Source: Cellulomonas sp. SG140 (GTDB lineage: Bacteria; Actinomycetota; Actinomycetes; Actinomycetales; Cellulomonadaceae). Taken from it: a stretch of DNA of 64,000 bases. Shown piece after piece: positions 1,217 to 55,421 of this stretch (within the stretch, counting starts at the first letter, position 1; every line of letters starts with the position of its first letter). The notes beneath the pieces were generated by a model. The model made no database searches, had not been told where the DNA came from, and saw nothing but the letters and a program-made list of their open reading frames with translations. The position numbers and the translations under genes are program-made. The stretch is taken from assembly GCF_025770785.1 (NCBI RefSeq), contig NZ_JANZLA010000006.1:1-64000 (forward strand), read 5' to 3'.

Positions 1217-3400
1217 GTGTCCGATGCCCGGCCCACCTTCCCCGTCGTCAACTTCCGCGGGTACGACCGCGACGCCGTCGACGCGCGGATCGCCGCTCTC
1301 GAGAAGGCCGTGGACGACGCCCGTTCGCAGGTCCAGGCTGCGGACGCCAAGGCGCTCCAGGTCGCCGGTGAGCTCTCCGAGGCGCACCGGCAGCTGCGGG
1401 AGGCGGAGCGGCCCACGTACTCCGGCCTCGGCTCGCGGATCGAGCAGCTGCTGCGCTCCGCCGAGGAGCAGTCGTCCGACGTCGTGACCCAGGCCAACGC
1501 CCAGGCGGCGGACTCGCTCGCGCGGGCCAAGCTCGCAGCCGGCCAGCTCCGCGCGCGCGCGGAGAACGAGGTCGCGGAGCTGCTGGCGACCGCGCGCCGC
1601 GAGGCCGAGGAGGTCCGGACGTCGGCGGCCACGGAGGCGGAGAGCCAGCTGACCGCCGCGCAGCGGAGGGCCGAGGAGCTGGTCGGCTCCGCCGAGCGCG
1701 AGGCGGCTCGGATCGCCAGTGCGATCGCCACCGAGGAGAGCGAGCGGCGCACCACCCTCGAGCGCGAGCTCGGCACGCTGCGGGCGACGGTCGAGCACGA
1801 GGCGACCCAGCTTCGGGTCGCGACGGAGCGCACCGCGAGCGAGCTGCGGGCACGCACGGAAGCGGAGACCGAGGCGCTGCGGGCCGAGGCCGAGCGCTAC
1901 GACCAGGACCTGCGCCGCGCGGCCGACGTCGAGACGACGGAGCTGCGTCAGCGCGTGGAGTCCGAGCTGGCCGCCCGGACCTCCGAGGTGGACCGGTACG
2001 CGGCACGGGTGCGCGCCGAGGCGGACGACGAGGCCGCCGCCCTGCGCCAGCACGTGGCGGACGAGGTCACGACCCTGCGCGCGTCGGCCCAGGAGTACGC
2101 CGACCAGGTGCGTTCCGCGGCGGAGCGGGACGCGGCGGCGCTGCAGCAGCGGGTCGCCGCCGAGGTGGCGGCGCTGCGGACCGAGGCCGAGCAGTACGCG
2201 TCCTTCGTGCGGGCCAGCGCGGAGCGGGAGACCGGGGAGCTGCGGGCGACGACGGCGGACGAGCTGGCGGCCGCCCGCACCGAGGCGGAGCAGGCCGTCG
2301 CGGCGCTCCGTGCGGAGGCGGCGCAGTACGCGGCGGACCTGCGGGCCCGCGCCGAGCGAGAGACGACGGAGCTGCGGGAGCGGACGCAGGTCGAGACGGC
2401 GCACCTCACCCAGGTCACCGAGCGGGAGACCACCCAGCTGCGGGAGACCACCGAGAGGGAGGCCGCCGAGCTGCGGGCGACCGCCGCACGCGAGACCGCG
2501 GAGCTGCGCGAGACCACGCGCCTGGAGGTCGAGCGGCTGCAGACCGAGGCGCGGCGGTCGATCGCCGACCTGACCGCGAACGCCAAGGCGCACGCGGACA
2601 CGCTGGTGCGGGACGCCGAGCAGCGGCTGGCGGACGCCGAGCTGGAGATCGCCTCGAAGCGGGAGGCGGCGGAGCGTGCGGACTCCGAGCGCCACGAGCG
2701 CGCTCGTGCCGAGACGGAGCGCCTGGTCGCGGACGCGGAGGCGCACGCCGCCGAGGCCGAGCAGCGGGTGGCCAAGGCTCTGGCGCAGGCCGAGAAGGTG
2801 CGGACCGACGCGGAGGCGCACGCCCGGGATCTCGTCTCGAACGCTCGCAAGAACGCCGACCGCGTCGTCTCCGAGGCCCGGGAGCACGCGGAGAAGCAGA
2901 TCTCGGACGCGATGATCGAGTCCGAGCGCGAGCGCACGTCCGCCCAGCGCCAGGTGGAGGACCTGAACCGGCAGCGGGAGTCGATCACCGGCTACCTCGA
3001 CGAGCTGCGCAACCTCCTCGGGAGCAACCCGGACCGGTCGGCGTTGGAGAAGGCCGGTCGCGTGGAGGCGGAGTTCGAGAAGAACCGTCAGGCCGCGGTG
3101 GAGCGTCCGGCTCGGAGCAGCCGGCCGGCGGCACGGGGCGCCAAGGGACGACCGGCACCGGTGTCCGCGGCTGCGACGGCGCCGGCGAGCCCGGCGGCCG
3201 ACGACGAGGCCCCGGTGGCTGCCGAGGCGGCTGCCGACGGCATCCCGGAGGGCGCGACGCCGGCCCGCGAGGCCGAGGCCGAGGGGCAGCCCGAGCCGAC
3301 CTCCGAGGCGGCCGGTGCCGAGTCCGTGGGTGACGAGGCGGTGCGCGACGAGTCGGAGGCGTCGGTGGAGTCGACCGACGCCGCATCCGCTCGCGGCTGA
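1217..3400 (+). CDS. DivIVA-domain long coiled-coil protein (Scy/FilP-like)
   Basis: 727 residues. The start is GTG 1217, with GGAGG ten bases upstream. The N-terminus (FPVVNFRGYDRDAVDARI) looks like a DivIVA-type polar-targeting segment. Residues about 40-610 are almost pure Ala/Glu/Arg coiled coil, including five 33-residue units at 228-403. The tail from about 640 is Pro/Ala/Glu-rich and probably disordered. Known relatives are the actinobacterial cytoskeletal proteins Scy, FilP and Wag31, which organise polar growth. By inference it is a cytoplasmic scaffold for growth or division. It is probably followed in the same transcript by the gene at 3406, five bases downstream. The parts resembling ATP synthase subunit b are only generic coiled-coil similarity. 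Confidence 0.85.
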   Translation: MSDARPTFPVVNFRGYDRDAVDARIAALEKAVDDARSQVQAADAKALQVAGELSEAHRQLREAERPTYSGLGSRIEQLLRSAEEQSSDVVTQANAQAADSLARAKLAAGQLRARAENEVAELLATARREAEEVRTSAATEAESQLTAAQRRAEELVGSAEREAARIASAIATEESERRTTLERELGTLRATVEHEATQLRVATERTASELRARTEAETEALRAEAERYDQDLRRAADVETTELRQRVESELAARTSEVDRYAARVRAEADDEAAALRQHVADEVTTLRASAQEYADQVRSAAERDAAALQQRVAAEVAALRTEAEQYASFVRASAERETGELRATTADELAAARTEAEQAVAALRAEAAQYAADLRARAERETTELRERTQVETAHLTQVTERETTQLRETTEREAAELRATAARETAELRETTRLEVERLQTEARRSIADLTANAKAHADTLVRDAEQRLADAELEIASKREAAERADSERHERARAETERLVADAEAHAAEAEQRVAKALAQAEKVRTDAEAHARDLVSNARKNADRVVSEAREHAEKQISDAMIESERERTSAQRQVEDLNRQRESITGYLDELRNLLGSNPDRSALEKAGRVEAEFEKNRQAAVERPARSSRPAARGAKGRPAPVSAAATAPASPAADDEAPVAAEAAADGIPEGATPAREAEAEGQPEPTSEAAGAESVGDEAVRDESEASVESTDAASARG
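1898..2425 (+). repeat. In-frame 99-bp repeats encoding 33-residue coiled-coil units
   Basis: Five diverged 99-bp units begin at 1898, 1997, 2096, 2195 and 2327. Each opens with a Tyr codon (YDQD, YAAR, YADQ, YASF, YAAD) and continues in an LR/VR..E..ELR pattern. Between units four and five sits an extra 33-bp block (2294-2326) encoding eleven residues (AVAALRAEAAQ). The period is therefore 3 x 11 residues, a hendecad rather than heptad coiled coil. Confidence 0.85.
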
Positions 3401-45680: not shown

Positions 45681-47693
45681 TCAGGCCCGCCCCAGCGCCA
45701 CCGGTTCGACCGTCCCCAGCCCCTCGACGTCGCGTGGCGGCAGCGCGGTCAGGACGTACCGGGGGTCGTCGGCCAGCAGCGCCGCCGTGGTCGCGTCGAC
45801 CCACACGCTGCTCGGATCCGTGATGTCCGTCAGCCGGGCGGCCAGGTTGACCGAGGCGCCGAACACGTCGCCGAACCGGGACAGCACCCGGCCCCACACC
45901 ATCCCGACGCGCACCGGGGTCACGCCGCGCGCACCCTGCGTCAGGTCGTCGGGAACGGCGCCCGCGCCGTCGCCGAACCGCGCCGCGAGGCCGAGCGCGA
46001 CCTCCGCACCCGTCACGACGTCGTCGGCGACGAACAGCACGGCGTCCCCGATCGTCTTGACCACGCGTCCGCCGGCCGCCGCGACGACGTCCCGCGCGGC
46101 CGCCTCGAAGCGCTGCACGAAGGCCGACAGGTCGGTCGACCCGAGCCCCGCGGTGCGCCGCGTGAACTGCACCATGTCGGCAAAGCCGACCGCGCGCGCC
46201 AGCGGCAGGTCGGACGGGCCCGTGCCGACCTGCCGCGCCTGCCCCAGCTCGGCCCCGAAGCGCCCGCCGATCGTCGCCAGCTGGCGACGGAACGCCAGCA
46301 CCAGCTCCTGCTCGAGGACGGGGGCGATGGCGGCGAGCCGGTCGAGCACCAGCAGGCGTGCGCTCGCGTCGTCGAGCCGGTACCGGGTCGCTGCGTCCTC
46401 GACCAGGGCCTCCACCTGCCACAGGGCGAGGCGGTCGGTGGTATGCCCCAGGCCGCGCACGAGGGTGCGGACGGTCGACAGCTGCAGACCCTCGCGCCGC
46501 ACCAGGTCGACGAGGGCCCGCACCGCCTCGGCGTCGCGCTCGGTGTACGCCCGCTCGTCCGGTTCGGCGGCCGCCAGCCCGAAGGTGCGCCAGAACGTGC
46601 GGACGGACTCCTCGTCCACGCCGGCGCGCAGCGCGAGGTCACCGGCGGTCAACGTGCGCGGACCGCCGAGCAGCACCTCGTCCAGCTTGGCGACCGTCGA
46701 GTCGGCAGGAGCGGGCTCGGCCGCCACCCCGGTCGCACCGGCGGTCCGGTCGCCAGGCCCGTCCGCGACGGTCGCGGCGGGGCTCGCGGCAACCCGGCCC
46801 ACCTGTCCGCGCACGTGCAGCACGTCGCCGGCTGCCACCACGTGCTCGCCGTCCGGCCCGCCGACCACCAGGGCGCCGGTCGCGTCCAGCCGCAGCGCCG
46901 CCCCGTCGAGAACGCCGCCGCCCGGAAGCTCCACGTGCACGCGCCGGCCGAGCGTCTCGCACACGGCCGCGACCTCCGCCGCGACACCGGCGAGCGCGGC
47001 GTCCCCGTCCGCCGCCGCCCACCGGTCCACCACCTCGAGCACCGCGCTGACGACCGCGGTCAGCACGGTCTCCCGGTCGGTGTGCTGGGCGCCCGCCAGG
47101 GCGAGCGACGTCGCACTCTCCACGGGCAGCTCCGGGACCGTCTGGGAGACGTTGACGCCGATGCCGATCAGCACGGCCGCACCGGCACCGTCCGTCGCCC
47201 CGCCGGCCGTCGAGCCGCCGGGCAGCGCCACCACCTCCGTGAGGATGCCGCCGACCTTGCGGGCGGTCCCCCACCCGCCGAGCTCCGGGACGTGACCGTC
47301 CAGGTCCACCAGCACGTCGTTGGGCCACTTGAGCACCGCCGGCACGCCGGCGGTCGCCCGGAGGGCCGTCACGGCACCGAGCCCGGCCAGCAGCGGCAAC
47401 CAGCCCCACCGCTCCGGCGGCACCCCGGGCCGGAGCACGAGGGTGGCGGTCAGCGCCGCCCGCGCGGGGGTGACCCAGCTGCGTCCCGCTCGCCCGCGGC
47501 CGGCCACCTGCTGGTCCGCCACCAGGAGCGAGCGGTCCGGCCACGACTCGGGGTCGACCCGCAGCTCGTCGGCCACGGCGCTGCTGGTCGACCCGACCGC
47601 GTCCACCACCTCGACCTTCGCCAGCGGTCCCCCTGGCGTGAGCAGCAGCTCACGGAGCTCACCCCGGCGCAGCGGGGGACGGTCGGCGGTCAC
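45681..47693 (-). CDS. Fusion: biotin protein ligase (BirA) + class III adenylate cyclase
   Basis: 670 residues in one uninterrupted frame. Residues about 28-300 are a group I BirA without the HTH domain: GRGRAGR (65-71), KWPND (122-126), KVGGILTE (146-153) and a C-terminal SH3-like part (about 245-300). A Pro/Ala/Thr linker (300-335) leads to a helical MerR-like regulatory segment (336-490, [18 protein letters not shown]) like that of Rv1264-type cyclases. Then comes the cyclase domain with metal Asp506 and Asp550, adenine-selecting Lys546 and Asp609, and Asn616/Arg620. All six catalytic positions are intact. In Streptomyces the two are separate neighbouring genes, so the fusion is derived. 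Start choice (GTG 47693, or 47726) is uncertain. Confidence 0.93.
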
Positions 47694-47713
47694 CCGGCCA
47701 TCATCGTGCAGTT

Positions 47714-47726
47714 GTGGGGTCCCCAC
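47714..47726. promoter_or_regulatory. Palindrome between the BirA-cyclase gene and carboxylase beta
   Basis: GTGGGGTCCCCAC is a perfect palindrome (six-base arms around T) in the 103-base divergent region. It could be a shared operator; no match to BirA or BioQ boxes is evident. Confidence 0.45.
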
Positions 47727-47783
47727 GAGGTGCCGCGACGAACGCCGTGACGCGCCTGCACGGCACCGCGGGGACGCGACAAC

Positions 47784-47789
47784 TAGCCT
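47784..47789 (+). promoter_or_regulatory. -10 hexamer TAGCCT, leaderless-type
   Basis: TAGCCT ends seven bases before GTG 47797 of the carboxylase beta gene, with no Shine-Dalgarno in between. Confidence 0.5.
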
Positions 47790-47796
47790 TCGTCGG

Positions 47797-49446
47797 GTGA
47801 CTCAGACCGACCCCTCCGGCGCCCCACCGGCCGACCCGTCCTCGCAGGCGGACGCGCCCGATGCCGCCGCCGAGGCCTCCGGCACCGCCGCGAAGCTCGC
47901 CGACCTCGCCGCGCGTCAGCAGACCGCGATCGACGAGGCCGAGCGCACCGCCGCCGAGAAGCAGCATGCCCGCGGCAAGAAGACCGCCCGCGAGCGCATC
48001 GAGGCGCTCCTCGACCCGGGCACGTTCACCGAGATCGACGCCTTCGTCCGGCACCGGTCCACCAACTTCGGCCTGGACCGCAAGCGGGTGCCGGGCGACG
48101 GCGTGGTGGTGGGGCACGGCACGGTGGACGGCCGCGAGGTGTGCGTCTACTCGCAGGACTTCACCGTGTTCGGCGGCAGCCTCGGCGAGGTGCACGGCCA
48201 GAAGATCACCAAGGTGATGGACCTCGCCCTGCGTACCGGCGTCCCGCTGGTCGGCATCCTCGACGGCGGCGGCGCCCGCATCCAGGAGGGCGTCGCGGGC
48301 CTCACCCAGTTCGCCGAGATCTTCCGCCGCAACGTGGCGGCCTCCGGCGTGATCCCGCAGATCAGCCTGATCCTCGGCCCGTCGGCCGGCGGCGCGGTGT
48401 ACTCCCCCGCGCTGACCGACTTCATCGTCATGGCGGACGGCACGTCGAACATGTTCATCACCGGTCCGGACGTGATCCGCGCCGTCACCGGCGAGGACGT
48501 CGGCTTCGAGGAGCTGGGTGGCGCGACCACGCACAACACCCGCTCGGGCGTGGCGCACTACCTCGCCTCCGACGAGGACGACGCGATCGACTACGTCCGC
48601 GCCCTGCTGTCCTACCTGCCGCCGAACAACCTGACCGACCCGCCGTCGTTCGCCCACGAGGCCGACCTCGAGCCGACCGACGAGGACCTGGCCCTCGACT
48701 CCCTGGTCCCGGACTCCGACTCCCAGCCGTACGACATGCGGACGGTCGTCGAGGCGGTGCTCGACGCCGGCGAGCTGCTCGAGGTCCAGTCGCTGTACGC
48801 CCCCAACGTGCTGATCGGGTTCGGGCACGTCGAGGGTCAGCCGGTCGGCATCGTCGCCAACCAGCCGATGTCGATGGCGGGCACCCTCGACATCAACGCC
48901 GCCGAGAAGGCCGCCCGGTTCGTGCGGACGTGCGACGCGTTCAACGTCCCGGTGCTGACGTTCGTCGACGTCCCGGGCTTCCTGCCGGGCACCGACCAGG
49001 AGTGGAACGGCATCATCCGCCGCGGCGCGAAGCTGATCTTCGCCTACGCCGAGGCGACGGTCCCGCTGGTCACCGTCATCACCCGCAAGGCGTACGGCGG
49101 CGCCTACATCGTCATGGGCTCCAAGCAGCTGGGCGCCGACGTGAACCTCGCCTGGCCCACGGCGCAGATCGCCGTGATGGGCGCCAGCGGGGCCGTGAAC
49201 ATCCTGCAGCGCGGGGCCCTCAAGGCCGTCGAGCAGGCCGGCGGCGACGTCGACGCCGAGCGCCGGCGCCTCACCGCCGAGTACGAGGAGGCGATCGTCA
49301 ACCCGTGGGACGCCGCCGACCGCGGCTACGTCGACGCCGTGATCCACCCCTCGGCCACCCGCGCCGAGATCACCAAGGCGCTGCGTCTGCTGCGCACCAA
49401 ACGAGCCACCCTTCCGGCCAAGAAGCACGGGAACATCCCCCTATGA
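47797..49446 (+). CDS. accD: Acyl-CoA carboxylase beta subunit (carboxyltransferase)
   Basis: 549 residues. After a polar N-terminus the crotonase-like N-domain contains [13 protein letters not shown] and [14 protein letters not shown]. The C-domain contains [23 protein letters not shown] and [17 protein letters not shown]. It carboxylates acetyl- or propionyl-CoA using carboxybiotin from the alpha subunit. Its start is leaderless-type. Its stop overlaps the next gene's ATG. Alternatives are pccB or accD5 naming, which depends on substrate. Confidence 0.97.
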
Positions 49447-50256: not shown

Positions 50257-51951
50257 GTGACCGCCGAGCAGCCCACGCGCCCGCACACCCCCGTCGACGA
50301 GGTGGCCGACTCCTACGTCGACCGCTACGCCGCGCTGGACCCGCTGCTCGCCACCGAGCTCGGTGTCACCGGGCACGACGCGGAGATGACCGACCTGTCC
50401 CCCGCCGGGCACGCCGCCCGCTCCGACCTGACCCGCGAGACGCTGCAGCTGCTCGACGGCGTCGACCCGGTGGACTCCGAGGACGTGACCACCCTCGAGG
50501 CGATGTCCTACCTGCTGGGCACGGACCTGGAGCTGGACGCCGCCGGCGAGACGCTGGCCACGCTGAACAACATCGCCTCGCCCGTCCAGGGTCTGCGGGA
50601 CGTGTTCGACCTGATGGCGACCGACACCCCGGACGACTGGGCCGCCGTCGCCGCGCGGCTCGTCGAGCTCCCCGCCGCCGTCGCCGGCTACACCGAGTCG
50701 CTGCGCGCTGCCGCGGCCCAGGGACACGTCGCCGCCGCGCGGCAGGTGGCCGAGGCGGTGCGGCAGGCGCAGGAGCAGGCCGACCCGTCGTCGTCGTTCT
50801 TCCCCGGGTTCGTCGCCTCCGCGCCCGACCGGCTGGCCGGCTCGCTGCGGATCGAGCTGGAGCGCGGGGCGGCTCTGGCCGGGCAGGCCTACGCCGACCT
50901 GGCCGAGTTCCTCCGCGACCAGCTGGCACCGCTCGCCGGCGACCAGGACGCCGTCGGCCGCGACCGCTACGGCCTGCTCTCCCGGGCCTTCCTGGGCGCG
51001 ACGGTCGACCTCGACGAGACCTACGCGTGGGGCCTGGACCAGCTCGCGGCCATCACCGCCGAGCAGGAGCAGGTCGCCGCGCGGATCGCCGGACCCGGCG
51101 CGAGCGTCGACGCCGCGGTAGCCGCGCTCGACACGGACCCTGCCCGGACCCTGCACGGCACCGAGGCACTGCAGGGGTGGATGCAGCGCACCGCCGACGC
51201 CGCGATCGCGGCGCTCGACGGCGTGCACTTCGACATCCCGGCACCGCTGCGTCATCTCGAGTGCCGCATCGCGCCGACGCAGACCGGCGGCATCTACTAC
51301 ACCGGCCCCTCCGACGACCTGTCCCGGCCGGGTCGCATGTGGTGGTCGGTGCCGCCGGACGTCACCGAGTTCAACACGTGGCGGGAGCGGACCACCGTCT
51401 ACCACGAGGGCGTGCCGGGCCATCACCTGCAGGTCGGCGTCTCGGTGGTGAACCGCGAGCGGCTCAACCGCTGGCGCCGGCTGATGGCCTGGACCTCCGG
51501 GCACGGCGAGGGCTGGGCGCTGTACGCCGAGCGGCTGATGGCCGACCTGGGCTTCCTGGAGGACGACGGCGACCGCCTCGGCATGCTCGACGGTCAGCGG
51601 ATGCGCGCCGCCCGCGTCGTGTTCGACATCGGCGTGCACCTGGGCCTGCCGGCACCGGAGCAGTACGGCGGCGGGACGTGGGACGCCGACAAGGGGTGGG
51701 CGCTGCTGCGGGACAACATCCACATGCCGGAGTCGTTCATCCGGTTCGAGTGGATGCGCTACCTCGGCTGGCCGGGCCAGGCGCCGTCCTACCTGGTGGG
51801 CCAGCGGCTGTGGCAGCAGACGCGGGACCACGCCGCGCTGGCGGCCACAGCCCGCGGCGAGGTGTTCGACCTGCGCGCGTTCCACGACCACGCGCTGTCG
51901 CTCGGCTCGCTGCCCCTGCAGGTGCTGCCGGCGGCGCTCACCAGGCGCTGA
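50257..51951 (+). CDS. DUF885 metallopeptidase-like protein
   Basis: 564 residues. It is largely helical, with the metal motif YHEGVPGHHLQ and the downstream SGHGEGWALYAERLM typical of the DUF885 family (gluzincin-like fold). The second ligand segment EWMRYLGWPGQAPSYLVGQ is also conserved. No signal peptide is present, so it should be cytoplasmic. Function in any actinobacterium is unknown to me. It terminates at a hairpin shared with VKOR. Confidence 0.92.
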   Translation: MTAEQPTRPHTPVDEVADSYVDRYAALDPLLATELGVTGHDAEMTDLSPAGHAARSDLTRETLQLLDGVDPVDSEDVTTLEAMSYLLGTDLELDAAGETLATLNNIASPVQGLRDVFDLMATDTPDDWAAVAARLVELPAAVAGYTESLRAAAAQGHVAAARQVAEAVRQAQEQADPSSSFFPGFVASAPDRLAGSLRIELERGAALAGQAYADLAEFLRDQLAPLAGDQDAVGRDRYGLLSRAFLGATVDLDETYAWGLDQLAAITAEQEQVAARIAGPGASVDAAVAALDTDPARTLHGTEALQGWMQRTADAAIAALDGVHFDIPAPLRHLECRIAPTQTGGIYYTGPSDDLSRPGRMWWSVPPDVTEFNTWRERTTVYHEGVPGHHLQVGVSVVNRERLNRWRRLMAWTSGHGEGWALYAERLMADLGFLEDDGDRLGMLDGQRMRAARVVFDIGVHLGLPAPEQYGGGTWDADKGWALLRDNIHMPESFIRFEWMRYLGWPGQAPSYLVGQRLWQQTRDHAALAATARGEVFDLRAFHDHALSLGSLPLQVLPAALTRR

Positions 51952-53627: not shown

Positions 53628-55421
53628 GTGCCCGCCATCACCAAGGTCCTGGTCGCGAACCGGGGCGAGATCGCCGTGCGCATCGCACGTGCCTGCCGCG
53701 ATGCCGGTATCGCCTCGGTCGCCGTCTACGCCGAGCCCGACCGCGAGGCGCTGCACGTGCGGCTGGCCGACGAGGCGTTCTCGCTCGGCGGCGCCCGTGC
53801 CGCGGACACCTACCTCGACTCCGCCAAGCTGCTCGACGTCGCCCGGCGCGCCGGCGCCGACGCCGTGCACCCCGGCTACGGGTTCCTCTCCGAGAACGCC
53901 GCGTTCGCGCAGGCCGTGATCGACGCGGGTCTGGTGTGGATCGGTCCGCCGCCCGCGGCGATCGAGTCGCTCGGCGACAAGGTGAGCGCGCGGCACATCG
54001 CGCAGCGCGCCGGAGCCCCGCTGGTGGCCGGCACGCCGGACCCCGTGTCCGGTCCGGCCGAGGTGCACGCGTTCGCCGCCGAGCACGGGCTGCCGGTGGC
54101 GATCAAGGCGGCGTTCGGCGGCGGCGGGCGCGGCCTGAAGGTCGCCCGGACCGACGACGAGATCGACGAGCTCTACGAGTCGGCGGTGCGCGAGGCGGTC
54201 GCCGCCTTCGGCCGTGGCGAGTGCTTCGTCGAGCGGTACCTGGACCGGCCCCGGCACGTGGAGACGCAGTGCCTGGCCGACCAGCACGGGACGGTCGTCG
54301 TCGTCTCCACCCGCGACTGCTCGCTGCAGCGTCGCCACCAGAAGCTGGTGGAGGAGGCACCCGCACCGTTCGTCACGGCCGAGCAGCACGACGAGCTGGT
54401 CCGCGCGTCGATCGCCATCATGCGCGAGGCGGGCTACGTCGGCGCCGGCACCTGCGAGTTCCTGCTCGCGGCGGACGGCACCATCTCCTTCCTCGAGGTG
54501 AACACCCGCCTGCAGGTGGAGCACCCGGTCAGCGAGGAGGTCAGCGGCATCGACCTCGTCCGCGAGCAGCTGCGGGTCGCTGCCGGCGAACCGCTCGGCT
54601 ACGACTCGGTCCCGACCCGCGGACACTCGATCGAGTTCCGCCTCAACGGCGAGGACCCGGCGGCCGGCTTCCTGCCCGCCCCGGGCCGGATCAGCACGCT
54701 GCGGTTCCCGTCCGGCCCGGGGGTGCGCGTCGACTCGGGAGTGGTCGAGGGCGACACCGTCTCCGGCGCCTTCGACTCGATGATCGCCAAGCTGATCGTC
54801 ACCGGCGCCGACCGCCGGCAGGCGATCGAGCGGGCGCGCCGCGCGCTGTCCGAGCTCGAGGTGGTCGGCATCCCGACGGTGGTGCCGTTCCACCGGGCCG
54901 TGCTGCAGACCGAGGAGTTCGCGCCGACCGACCCGACGCAGCCGTTCACGGTGCACACCCGCTGGATCGAGACCGAGTTCGCGGACCGCCTCGCGGCCCT
55001 CGTACCGGCGGCCCCGAGGACGACGGCCGACGACGAGGACGACGAGCCGGACGCGCTGGAGCGCGTGGTGGTCGAGGTCGGCGGCAAGCGCCTCGAGGTC
55101 GTCCTCCCGGCCGCACTGGCCGGTGGCCGCACCGGCACCCGGGGCCGCGCGGCGCTGCCGACGGCACGCCGGCCGGTGCGTCGCGCTGCGGCGGCCAAGC
55201 CGGGCGGCACCACGCTGACGTCGCCGATGCAGGGAACCATCGTCAAGGTCGCCGTCGCGGAGGGCACCCAGGTGGCCGAGGGCGACCTGGTGGTGGTCCT
55301 CGAGGCGATGAAGATGGAGCAGCCCCTGCTGGCGCACCGCGCGGGCACCGTGACGGCGCTCAGCGCCGGGGTGGGGTCCAGCGTCTCCGCCGGCACCGCC
55401 ATCTGCGAGATCGTCGGCTGA
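53628..55421 (+). CDS. accA: Acyl-CoA carboxylase alpha subunit (biotin carboxylase + BCCP)
   Basis: 597 residues. The biotin carboxylase part (about 1-450) starts [20 protein letters not shown] and has the ATP-grasp glycine loop FGGGGRGLK and [13 protein letters not shown] charged linker ([13 protein letters not shown]) leads to the BCCP domain with biotinyl Lys562 in EAMKMEQP. It is the likely substrate of the BirA domain at 45.7-47.7 kb and partner of accD and accE. It uses bicarbonate and ATP. GTG 53628 is leaderless-type. Confidence 0.97.

Follow-up and report, generated by a model that had tools for sequence, protein, structure and literature searches.

A biotin protein ligase and a class III adenylyl cyclase encoded in one frame in Cellulomonas sp. 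SG140 and a few other actinobacteria

The window studied here, a stretch of 64,000 nucleotides from contig NZ_JANZLA010000006.1 of Cellulomonas sp. SG140 (RefSeq assembly GCF_025770785.1), contains a minus-strand frame that is open across 670 codons and whose translation joins a biotin protein ligase (BirA) to an adenylyl cyclase (Table 1). The open reading frame called mechanically starts upstream, at 47726. The second start, at 47693, was favored because this codon is GTG in SG140 and in a second fused Cellulomonas genome (G035), and ATG in a third (G027). An acyl-CoA carboxylase gene of the accD type adjoins the fused gene divergently here and in all five other fused genomes described below, which belong to two lineages; in SG140, the intergenic region between birA and accD is short (47694 to 47800). 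Positions 53628 to 55421 encode a biotin carboxylase that includes a biotinyl domain. A DUF885 gene (50257 to 51951) lies beside this carboxylase cluster; G027 and G035 likewise carry one close to the fused gene, as do two of the three fused loci of a second genus, g60.

Table 1. Features of the fused gene and the adjoining carboxylase gene in the window
Feature	Position	Strand	Basis
Fused BirA-adenylyl cyclase gene, 670 amino acids plus stop	45681..47693	-	Open reading frame and translation; orthologous unbroken frames in G027 and G035
Group I biotin ligase part (residues 1-298), lacking a DNA-binding domain	46800..47693	-	TIGR00121, PF03099, PF02237; structure match to 4xu2_A
Linker, about residues 299-332 by model, 296-336 by sequence motifs	46698..46799	-	pLDDT, junction comparison, dN/dS
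Helical cyclase regulatory domain (Ad_Cy_reg), about residues 333-487	46233..46697	-	PF16701; alignment with Rv1264 (1y11)
Class III adenylyl cyclase catalytic domain, about residues 498-670	45684..46202	-	PF00211; six conserved catalytic residues
Leaderless-type start of accD (TAGCCT, 7 nt, GTG)	47784..47799	+	Read from the sequence
Divergent acyl-CoA carboxylase carboxyltransferase gene (accD type)	47797..49446	+	PF01039, 649.8 bits

The first half of the protein is a complete-looking BirA. The fused protein scores 99.6 bits with the NCBIfam model TIGR00121 (cut-off, 83.1), and when it is scanned whole against Pfam, the catalytic domain BPL_LplA_LipB (PF03099; 48.1 bits) and the C-terminal domain BPL_C (PF02237; 26.7 bits) both exceed their curated cut-offs of 21, the combination expected of a group I biotin protein ligase. 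The biotin and ATP motifs GRGRxxR, KWPND, and K.GG.L are all present in SG140, and KWPND is invariant across 118 aligned BirA rows. There is no N-terminal helix-turn-helix, the first residue of the model aligning to residue 60 of Escherichia coli BirA (2ewn_A, 4wf2). A solved relative by sequence is the Mycobacterium tuberculosis BirA (E value, 2.4e-27), and model residues 1 to 298 superimpose on 4xu2_A with a Z score of 34.8 and an rmsd of 1.6 over 258 aligned positions at 35% identity. This part is putatively an active group I ligase that biotinylates a carrier protein.

The second half shows the features of a class III adenylyl cyclase. Guanylate_cyc (PF00211) is matched at 31.7 to 35.2 bits (31.7 on the whole protein) against a cut-off of 21.9, together with the two metal-binding aspartates, the adenine-binding lysine and aspartate, the asparagine, and the arginine. 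An earlier note, made from the letters alone, had named these as D506, K546, D550, D609, N616, and R620, and an alignment of related cyclases places all six where it put them. Five of the six do not vary among 117 distinct rows of related cyclases, of which 115 also have the asparagine. Ahead of the catalytic domain lies Ad_Cy_reg (PF16701), which scores 31.1 bits (cut-off, 28.6) on the cyclase part alone and is not reported when the whole fused protein is scanned against Pfam; among 25 aligned cyclases, only 13, SG140 included, match this family at an E value of 0.01. The same note had called this segment MerR-like and helical: the regulatory segment is real, but the resemblance to MerR is marginal; MerR_1 reaches 20.3 bits on the whole protein and 21.8 bits on the cyclase part, with a cut-off of 21.6. 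By sequence, Rv1264 is a solved relative of this half, matched across both the regulatory and catalytic parts at an E value of 1.1e-16. The cyclase part was modeled alone, as a structure search with the full model gave mostly BirA entries. Among the 50 matches then listed, the Rv1264 entries 1y10 and 1y11 were the only ones to align from the first residue of this model, and residues 1 to 340 matched 1y11 with a Z score of 23.7, an rmsd of 3.8, 319 of 340 positions aligned, and 23% identity, a Z score that is tied, among the same 50, with those of catalytic-domain entries (up to 24.4). Both the domain order and the whole-length match to the Rv1264 holoenzyme indicate a cyclase of the Rv1264 type. 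A short dimerization arm is given as the mark of class IIIc (PMC4626032). The cyclase half would form a homodimer and synthesize cAMP under the control of its regulatory domain.

The SG140 genome is 99.97% complete, with an estimated contamination of 6.25%, and the fused gene is its one match to PF00211. PF03099 has two matches, the fused gene and a protein on contig C4 that, by eye, is probably of the lipoate ligase type. Three cNMP-binding matches were found in the genome. Two of them, at C14:89167-89415 and C18:74449-74697, have identical scores on different contigs and are perhaps a duplicated or contaminating piece.

An AlphaFold2 model of the fused protein has a mean pLDDT of 88.9, and both halves are confidently modeled, in the full model as well as for the cyclase part alone. 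Stretches of at least three residues with a pLDDT below 50 are confined to the linker (300 to 323) and to loops at 163 to 167 and 577 to 581. The mutual placement of the halves is uninformative (pTM, 0.56), as only one half is represented in 48 of the 54 rows of the alignment. The linker, 34 to 41 residues long and predicted to be disordered, sits where unfused relatives carry the birA stop, a TANNNT box, and the GTG start of the cyclase. Measured between sequence motifs, it spans 41 residues in SG140 and 43 in G027 and G035, an in-frame difference. Among the three Cellulomonas genes, dN/dS (Nei-Gojobori) is 0.18 to 0.24 for BirA, 0.40 to 0.64 for the linker, and 0.06 to 0.09 for the cyclase; the corresponding values for the three genes of genus g60 are 0.25 to 0.34, 0.60 to 0.69, and 0.17 to 0.29, those for the linkers coming from few sites. 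By this measure, both enzyme parts are under purifying selection after fusion, and the linker stays open yet changes freely, a pattern more in keeping with a flexible tether than with a rigid path for signals. Predicted disorder and fast, loosely constrained evolution likewise argue against a rigid allosteric link, and signaling from domain to domain is not indicated.

The unbroken frame is shared with G027 and G035, whose proteins are 93 and 94% identical to that of SG140, and all three loci have accD, SRAP, and MFS neighbors in common. Most relatives are arranged differently. The survey of fused and separate genes that the earlier note had proposed covered 81 Cellulomonas genomes, among which three are fused and 72 have two frames: 16 with one match across both halves broken by at least one internal stop and 56 with two separate matches. 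The remainder comprises four genomes with a BirA match alone and two without a match at an E value of 1e-30. Six junctions from the group of 16 were inspected (L004 to L009), and all six have a TGA at the join. In G004, G082, G083 (67% complete), and G084, a BirA match is accompanied by no cyclase match at an E value of 1e-30, and it is possible that the cyclase has been lost in parts of the genus. Across 80 named loci, two hold both genes in one frame (L044 and L115) and 74 hold separate genes on one strand, in 72 of which at most 300 nt separate the birA stop from the cyclase domain; one has the genes on different strands, and, by the profile used, one has BirA alone and two have the cyclase alone. 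Outside the family, 22 genomes of the order gave 15 with both genes on the same strand less than 1,500 nt apart, one with the genes far apart, five with BirA alone, and one with no match. Since only three of the 81 Cellulomonas genomes are fused, fusion is not needed for function.

The junction in unfused Cellulomonas is stereotyped. The birA gene typically ends in GTGAACTAnnnT, followed by 6 to 7 nt and the GTG of the cyclase, and each of 27 such junctions (L004 to L030) has exactly one TANNNT, 6 to 7 nt ahead of the GTG (for example, TACCCT, 6 nt, GTG in L021). In the part of the cyclase frame that precedes the domain, 71 of the 74 named loci have TANNNT, 5 to 8 nt, and an in-frame RTG, as against none of 2,292 in-frame RTG codons inside both domains of the named loci, the former being a count of loci and the latter, the control, a count of codons. 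The three named loci without the pattern are L084, L117, and L121. At least L084 was probably missed because of the criterion used, as its contig equals that of L021 in length (151,259 bases). The center of the box lies about 9 to 10 nt before the cyclase start codon in unfused relatives. This is the arrangement of leaderless genes, TANNNT in M. tuberculosis being reported to center 7 to 12 bp upstream of transcript starts (PMC3898074); such boxes would be working promoters. A weaker NATNAT-type box seems, by eye, to lie 6 to 7 nt before the start of birA in relatives. A generic scan of the fused-gene region for sigma-70 promoters and terminators found nothing. The ancestral state is two tandem genes, in which a leaderless-type box and start belonging to the cyclase lay at the birA end. 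The stop near residues 300 to 335 that the earlier note would have read as a sign of error does exist in the genus, but it marks this ancestral state.

The three fused Cellulomonas junctions have neither stop nor TANNNT, and TANNNT is absent from all six fused junctions of Cellulomonas and g60. If the lost box was truly a promoter, control of the cyclase changes by necessity. The old cyclase GTG appears, by eye, to correspond to a GTC in the fused Cellulomonas, in a stretch too changed for certain placement. A separate cyclase chain could still arise in fused strains by internal initiation or proteolysis, as in-frame GTG and TTG codons persist in the Cellulomonas linker, with at most four of six matches to AGGAGG upstream, and one GTG inside the regulatory domain of G726 reaches five of six. 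An in-frame ATG in the linker of G173 has two of six Shine-Dalgarno matches and is absent there in G725 and G726.

Protein and profile searches for further fusions covered 297 and 396 genomes of the order, 394 of the class, and 366 of the phylum, in overlapping samples. Among the matches listed, further stop-free matches across both halves were found in G173, G725, G211, and G734. The single TGA counted in the profile match of SG140 was taken to be the terminal stop, the match reaching that codon. As matches were bounded by E value and few candidates were scored per genome, further distant fusions may exist. A search of a plasmid collection returned four records, in which the best-matching places correspond to the cyclase half alone. 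G173 and G725 belong to genus g60 (family f17), in which the genes are fused in all three genomes examined (G173, G725, and G726); the G725 and G726 proteins are 69 and 70% identical to that of G173, and the g60 linkers have 21 to 28 residues. Three other candidates, G560, G153, and G064, had appeared fused from equal open-frame lengths for both matches, and their DNA has two separate frames each. The 687-amino-acid frame of G211 (L133, G211:C2:3841000-3848500) was also rejected, the C-terminal part of its birA lying in another frame with its own TGA, either a natural frameshift or an assembly error. G734, a metagenome-assembled genome, gave L115 (on the same contig as L162, G734:C419), in which one frame runs across both genes (junction near locus positions 3190 to 3370): the birA stop has been lost, and TAACCT, 7 nt, and GTG are retained ahead of the cyclase. 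L115 is a candidate halfway stage to fusion and was counted as an undecided case; with its profile match split in two, it has no row in the tree described next.

In a quick tree of 51 chosen rows, each fused group forms one clade (SH-aLRT, 100), and the fewest changes needed are two. Forcing the six fused rows into one clade costs 193 log-likelihood units (p-AU, 4.08e-6), in a tree that flags long branches and, for the three rows from g60, an odd amino acid composition. G032, sister to the fused Cellulomonas in this tree, is unfused, as are the f17 rows G279, G808, and G051. A single origin is rejected by this quick tree, and the fusion apparently arose at least twice independently. A pair of enzymes for biotin ligation and cAMP synthesis that is usually encoded by two adjacent genes is thus predicted to be one protein in a few actinobacteria.

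We consider it likely that the fused gene yields one bifunctional polypeptide that ties the cell's cyclase to the expression of BirA. BirA and the Rv1264-type cyclase would be made as a single chain joined by the predicted disordered linker; BirA would go on biotinylating the acyl-CoA carboxylase carrier domain, and the cyclase would still yield cAMP as a homodimer under regulatory-domain control. The main effect would be that the only class III cyclase detected is driven by the birA promoter, in a constant 1:1 ratio, and is tethered to the biotinylation machinery of lipid synthesis. The repeated fusion of adjoining genes suggests that their products work together.

A neutral loss of the stop codon is the strongest competitor. 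Here both enzymes would work as before, co-expression would be the only effect, and the linker would perhaps be clipped after translation. The loose, predicted disordered linker, the prevalence of unfused relatives, and L115 as a plausible neutral intermediate all fit this account, but two separate fusions, one of them retained in all three g60 genomes although their proteins have diverged by about 30%, speak against it, as does the loss of the cyclase's box, if this was a promoter, and we rate it as somewhat unlikely, though a serious contender. It overlaps with the bifunctional polypeptide, as one chain is made in both cases, and the likelihoods given to the two are not meant to be exclusive.

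As to what the cyclase of the bifunctional polypeptide would respond to, oleic acid is reported to sit between the regulatory and catalytic domains of Rv1264 and to activate Rv2212 up to eightfold (PMC12505454). A pH-sensitive inhibitory domain has also been described for Rv1264 (PMC8856561), and Rv3645 is another cyclase discussed for tuberculosis (PMC9995111). Deletion of cya in Streptomyces coelicolor is reported to abolish antibiotic production (PMC7674942). From this literature, and by analogy with Rv1264 and Rv2212, a fatty acid or pH input appears likelier than bicarbonate or biotin, and the fusion would tie the capacity to make cAMP to the supply of BirA. A bolder proposal, which we hold to be doubtful, is that the fusion puts the sole class III cyclase at the biotin-dependent acyl-CoA carboxylase, where a lipid- or pH-sensing domain would report local fatty acid synthesis as cAMP. 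If so, the birA-cya-accD neighborhood of the order would be a general lipid-to-cAMP circuit, and the two fusions hard-wired versions of it.

The earlier note had instead proposed a reporter of biotin, carboxylation, or bicarbonate, in which BirA occupancy or bicarbonate drives cAMP output. The two activities are indeed physically linked, and accD adjoins the gene. However, bicarbonate-responsive cyclases of class IIIb have threonine at the position of the adenine-binding aspartate, and all 117 rows have aspartate there; the regulatory domain is of the Rv1264 type, linked to pH and oleic acid, and the linker is predicted to be disordered. We regard this proposal as very improbable. That an assembly or sequencing error joined two frames, as the contamination estimate and the possibility of such an error in the same gene pair of G211 might suggest, is hardly credible given unbroken frames at 92 to 94% identity in three genomes, an in-frame linker difference, shared neighbors, and a second fused genus. 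The covalent fusion claimed in the earlier note is upheld, and the Pfam families it named for a domain search are matched, BPL_LplA_LipB and Guanylate_cyc above cut-off and Ad_Cy_reg above cut-off on the cyclase part alone. Neither the second fusion nor the loss of the cyclase's leaderless-type start figured in that note.

The fusion connects protein biotinylation, and hence lipid synthesis, with cAMP signaling. No description of a BirA-cyclase fusion or of a link between biotinylation and cAMP was found in the open-licence papers searched, a scope that makes this a weak negative, and a search on Cellulomonas and cAMP found nothing useful. The fusion offers a testable hypothesis for the control of the Streptomyces-type cyclase. 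The locus is also a clear example of a gene with a leaderless-type start absorbed into its upstream neighbor, with L115 as a candidate halfway state.

Several known systems share parts of this architecture. The M. tuberculosis BirA (PDB 4op0, 4xu2, and 3rux) has the fold of residues 1 to 298, likewise without a DNA-binding domain, but stands alone, without a cyclase. The Rv1264 holoenzyme (PDB 1y10 and 1y11) shares the regulatory and catalytic fold across the full cyclase part, whereas its deposited chain of 407 residues is without a BirA part. LipJ (NF058673), a bifunctional lipase/adenylate cyclase, likewise joins a metabolic enzyme to a class III cyclase; its partner is a lipase, however, and the SG140 protein reaches 28.2 bits with this model (cut-off, 800), the cyclase part alone being matched. 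In S. coelicolor, judged from locus numbers, the cyclase lies near the acyl-CoA carboxylase subunit gene pccB, and SCO4927, between SCO4926 and SCO4928, is presumably birA; we take these to be separate genes there, in contrast to the one fused gene of SG140. The flanking assignments, cya as SCO4928 and PccB as SCO4926, are those reported for that organism (PMC7674942, PMC5311964).
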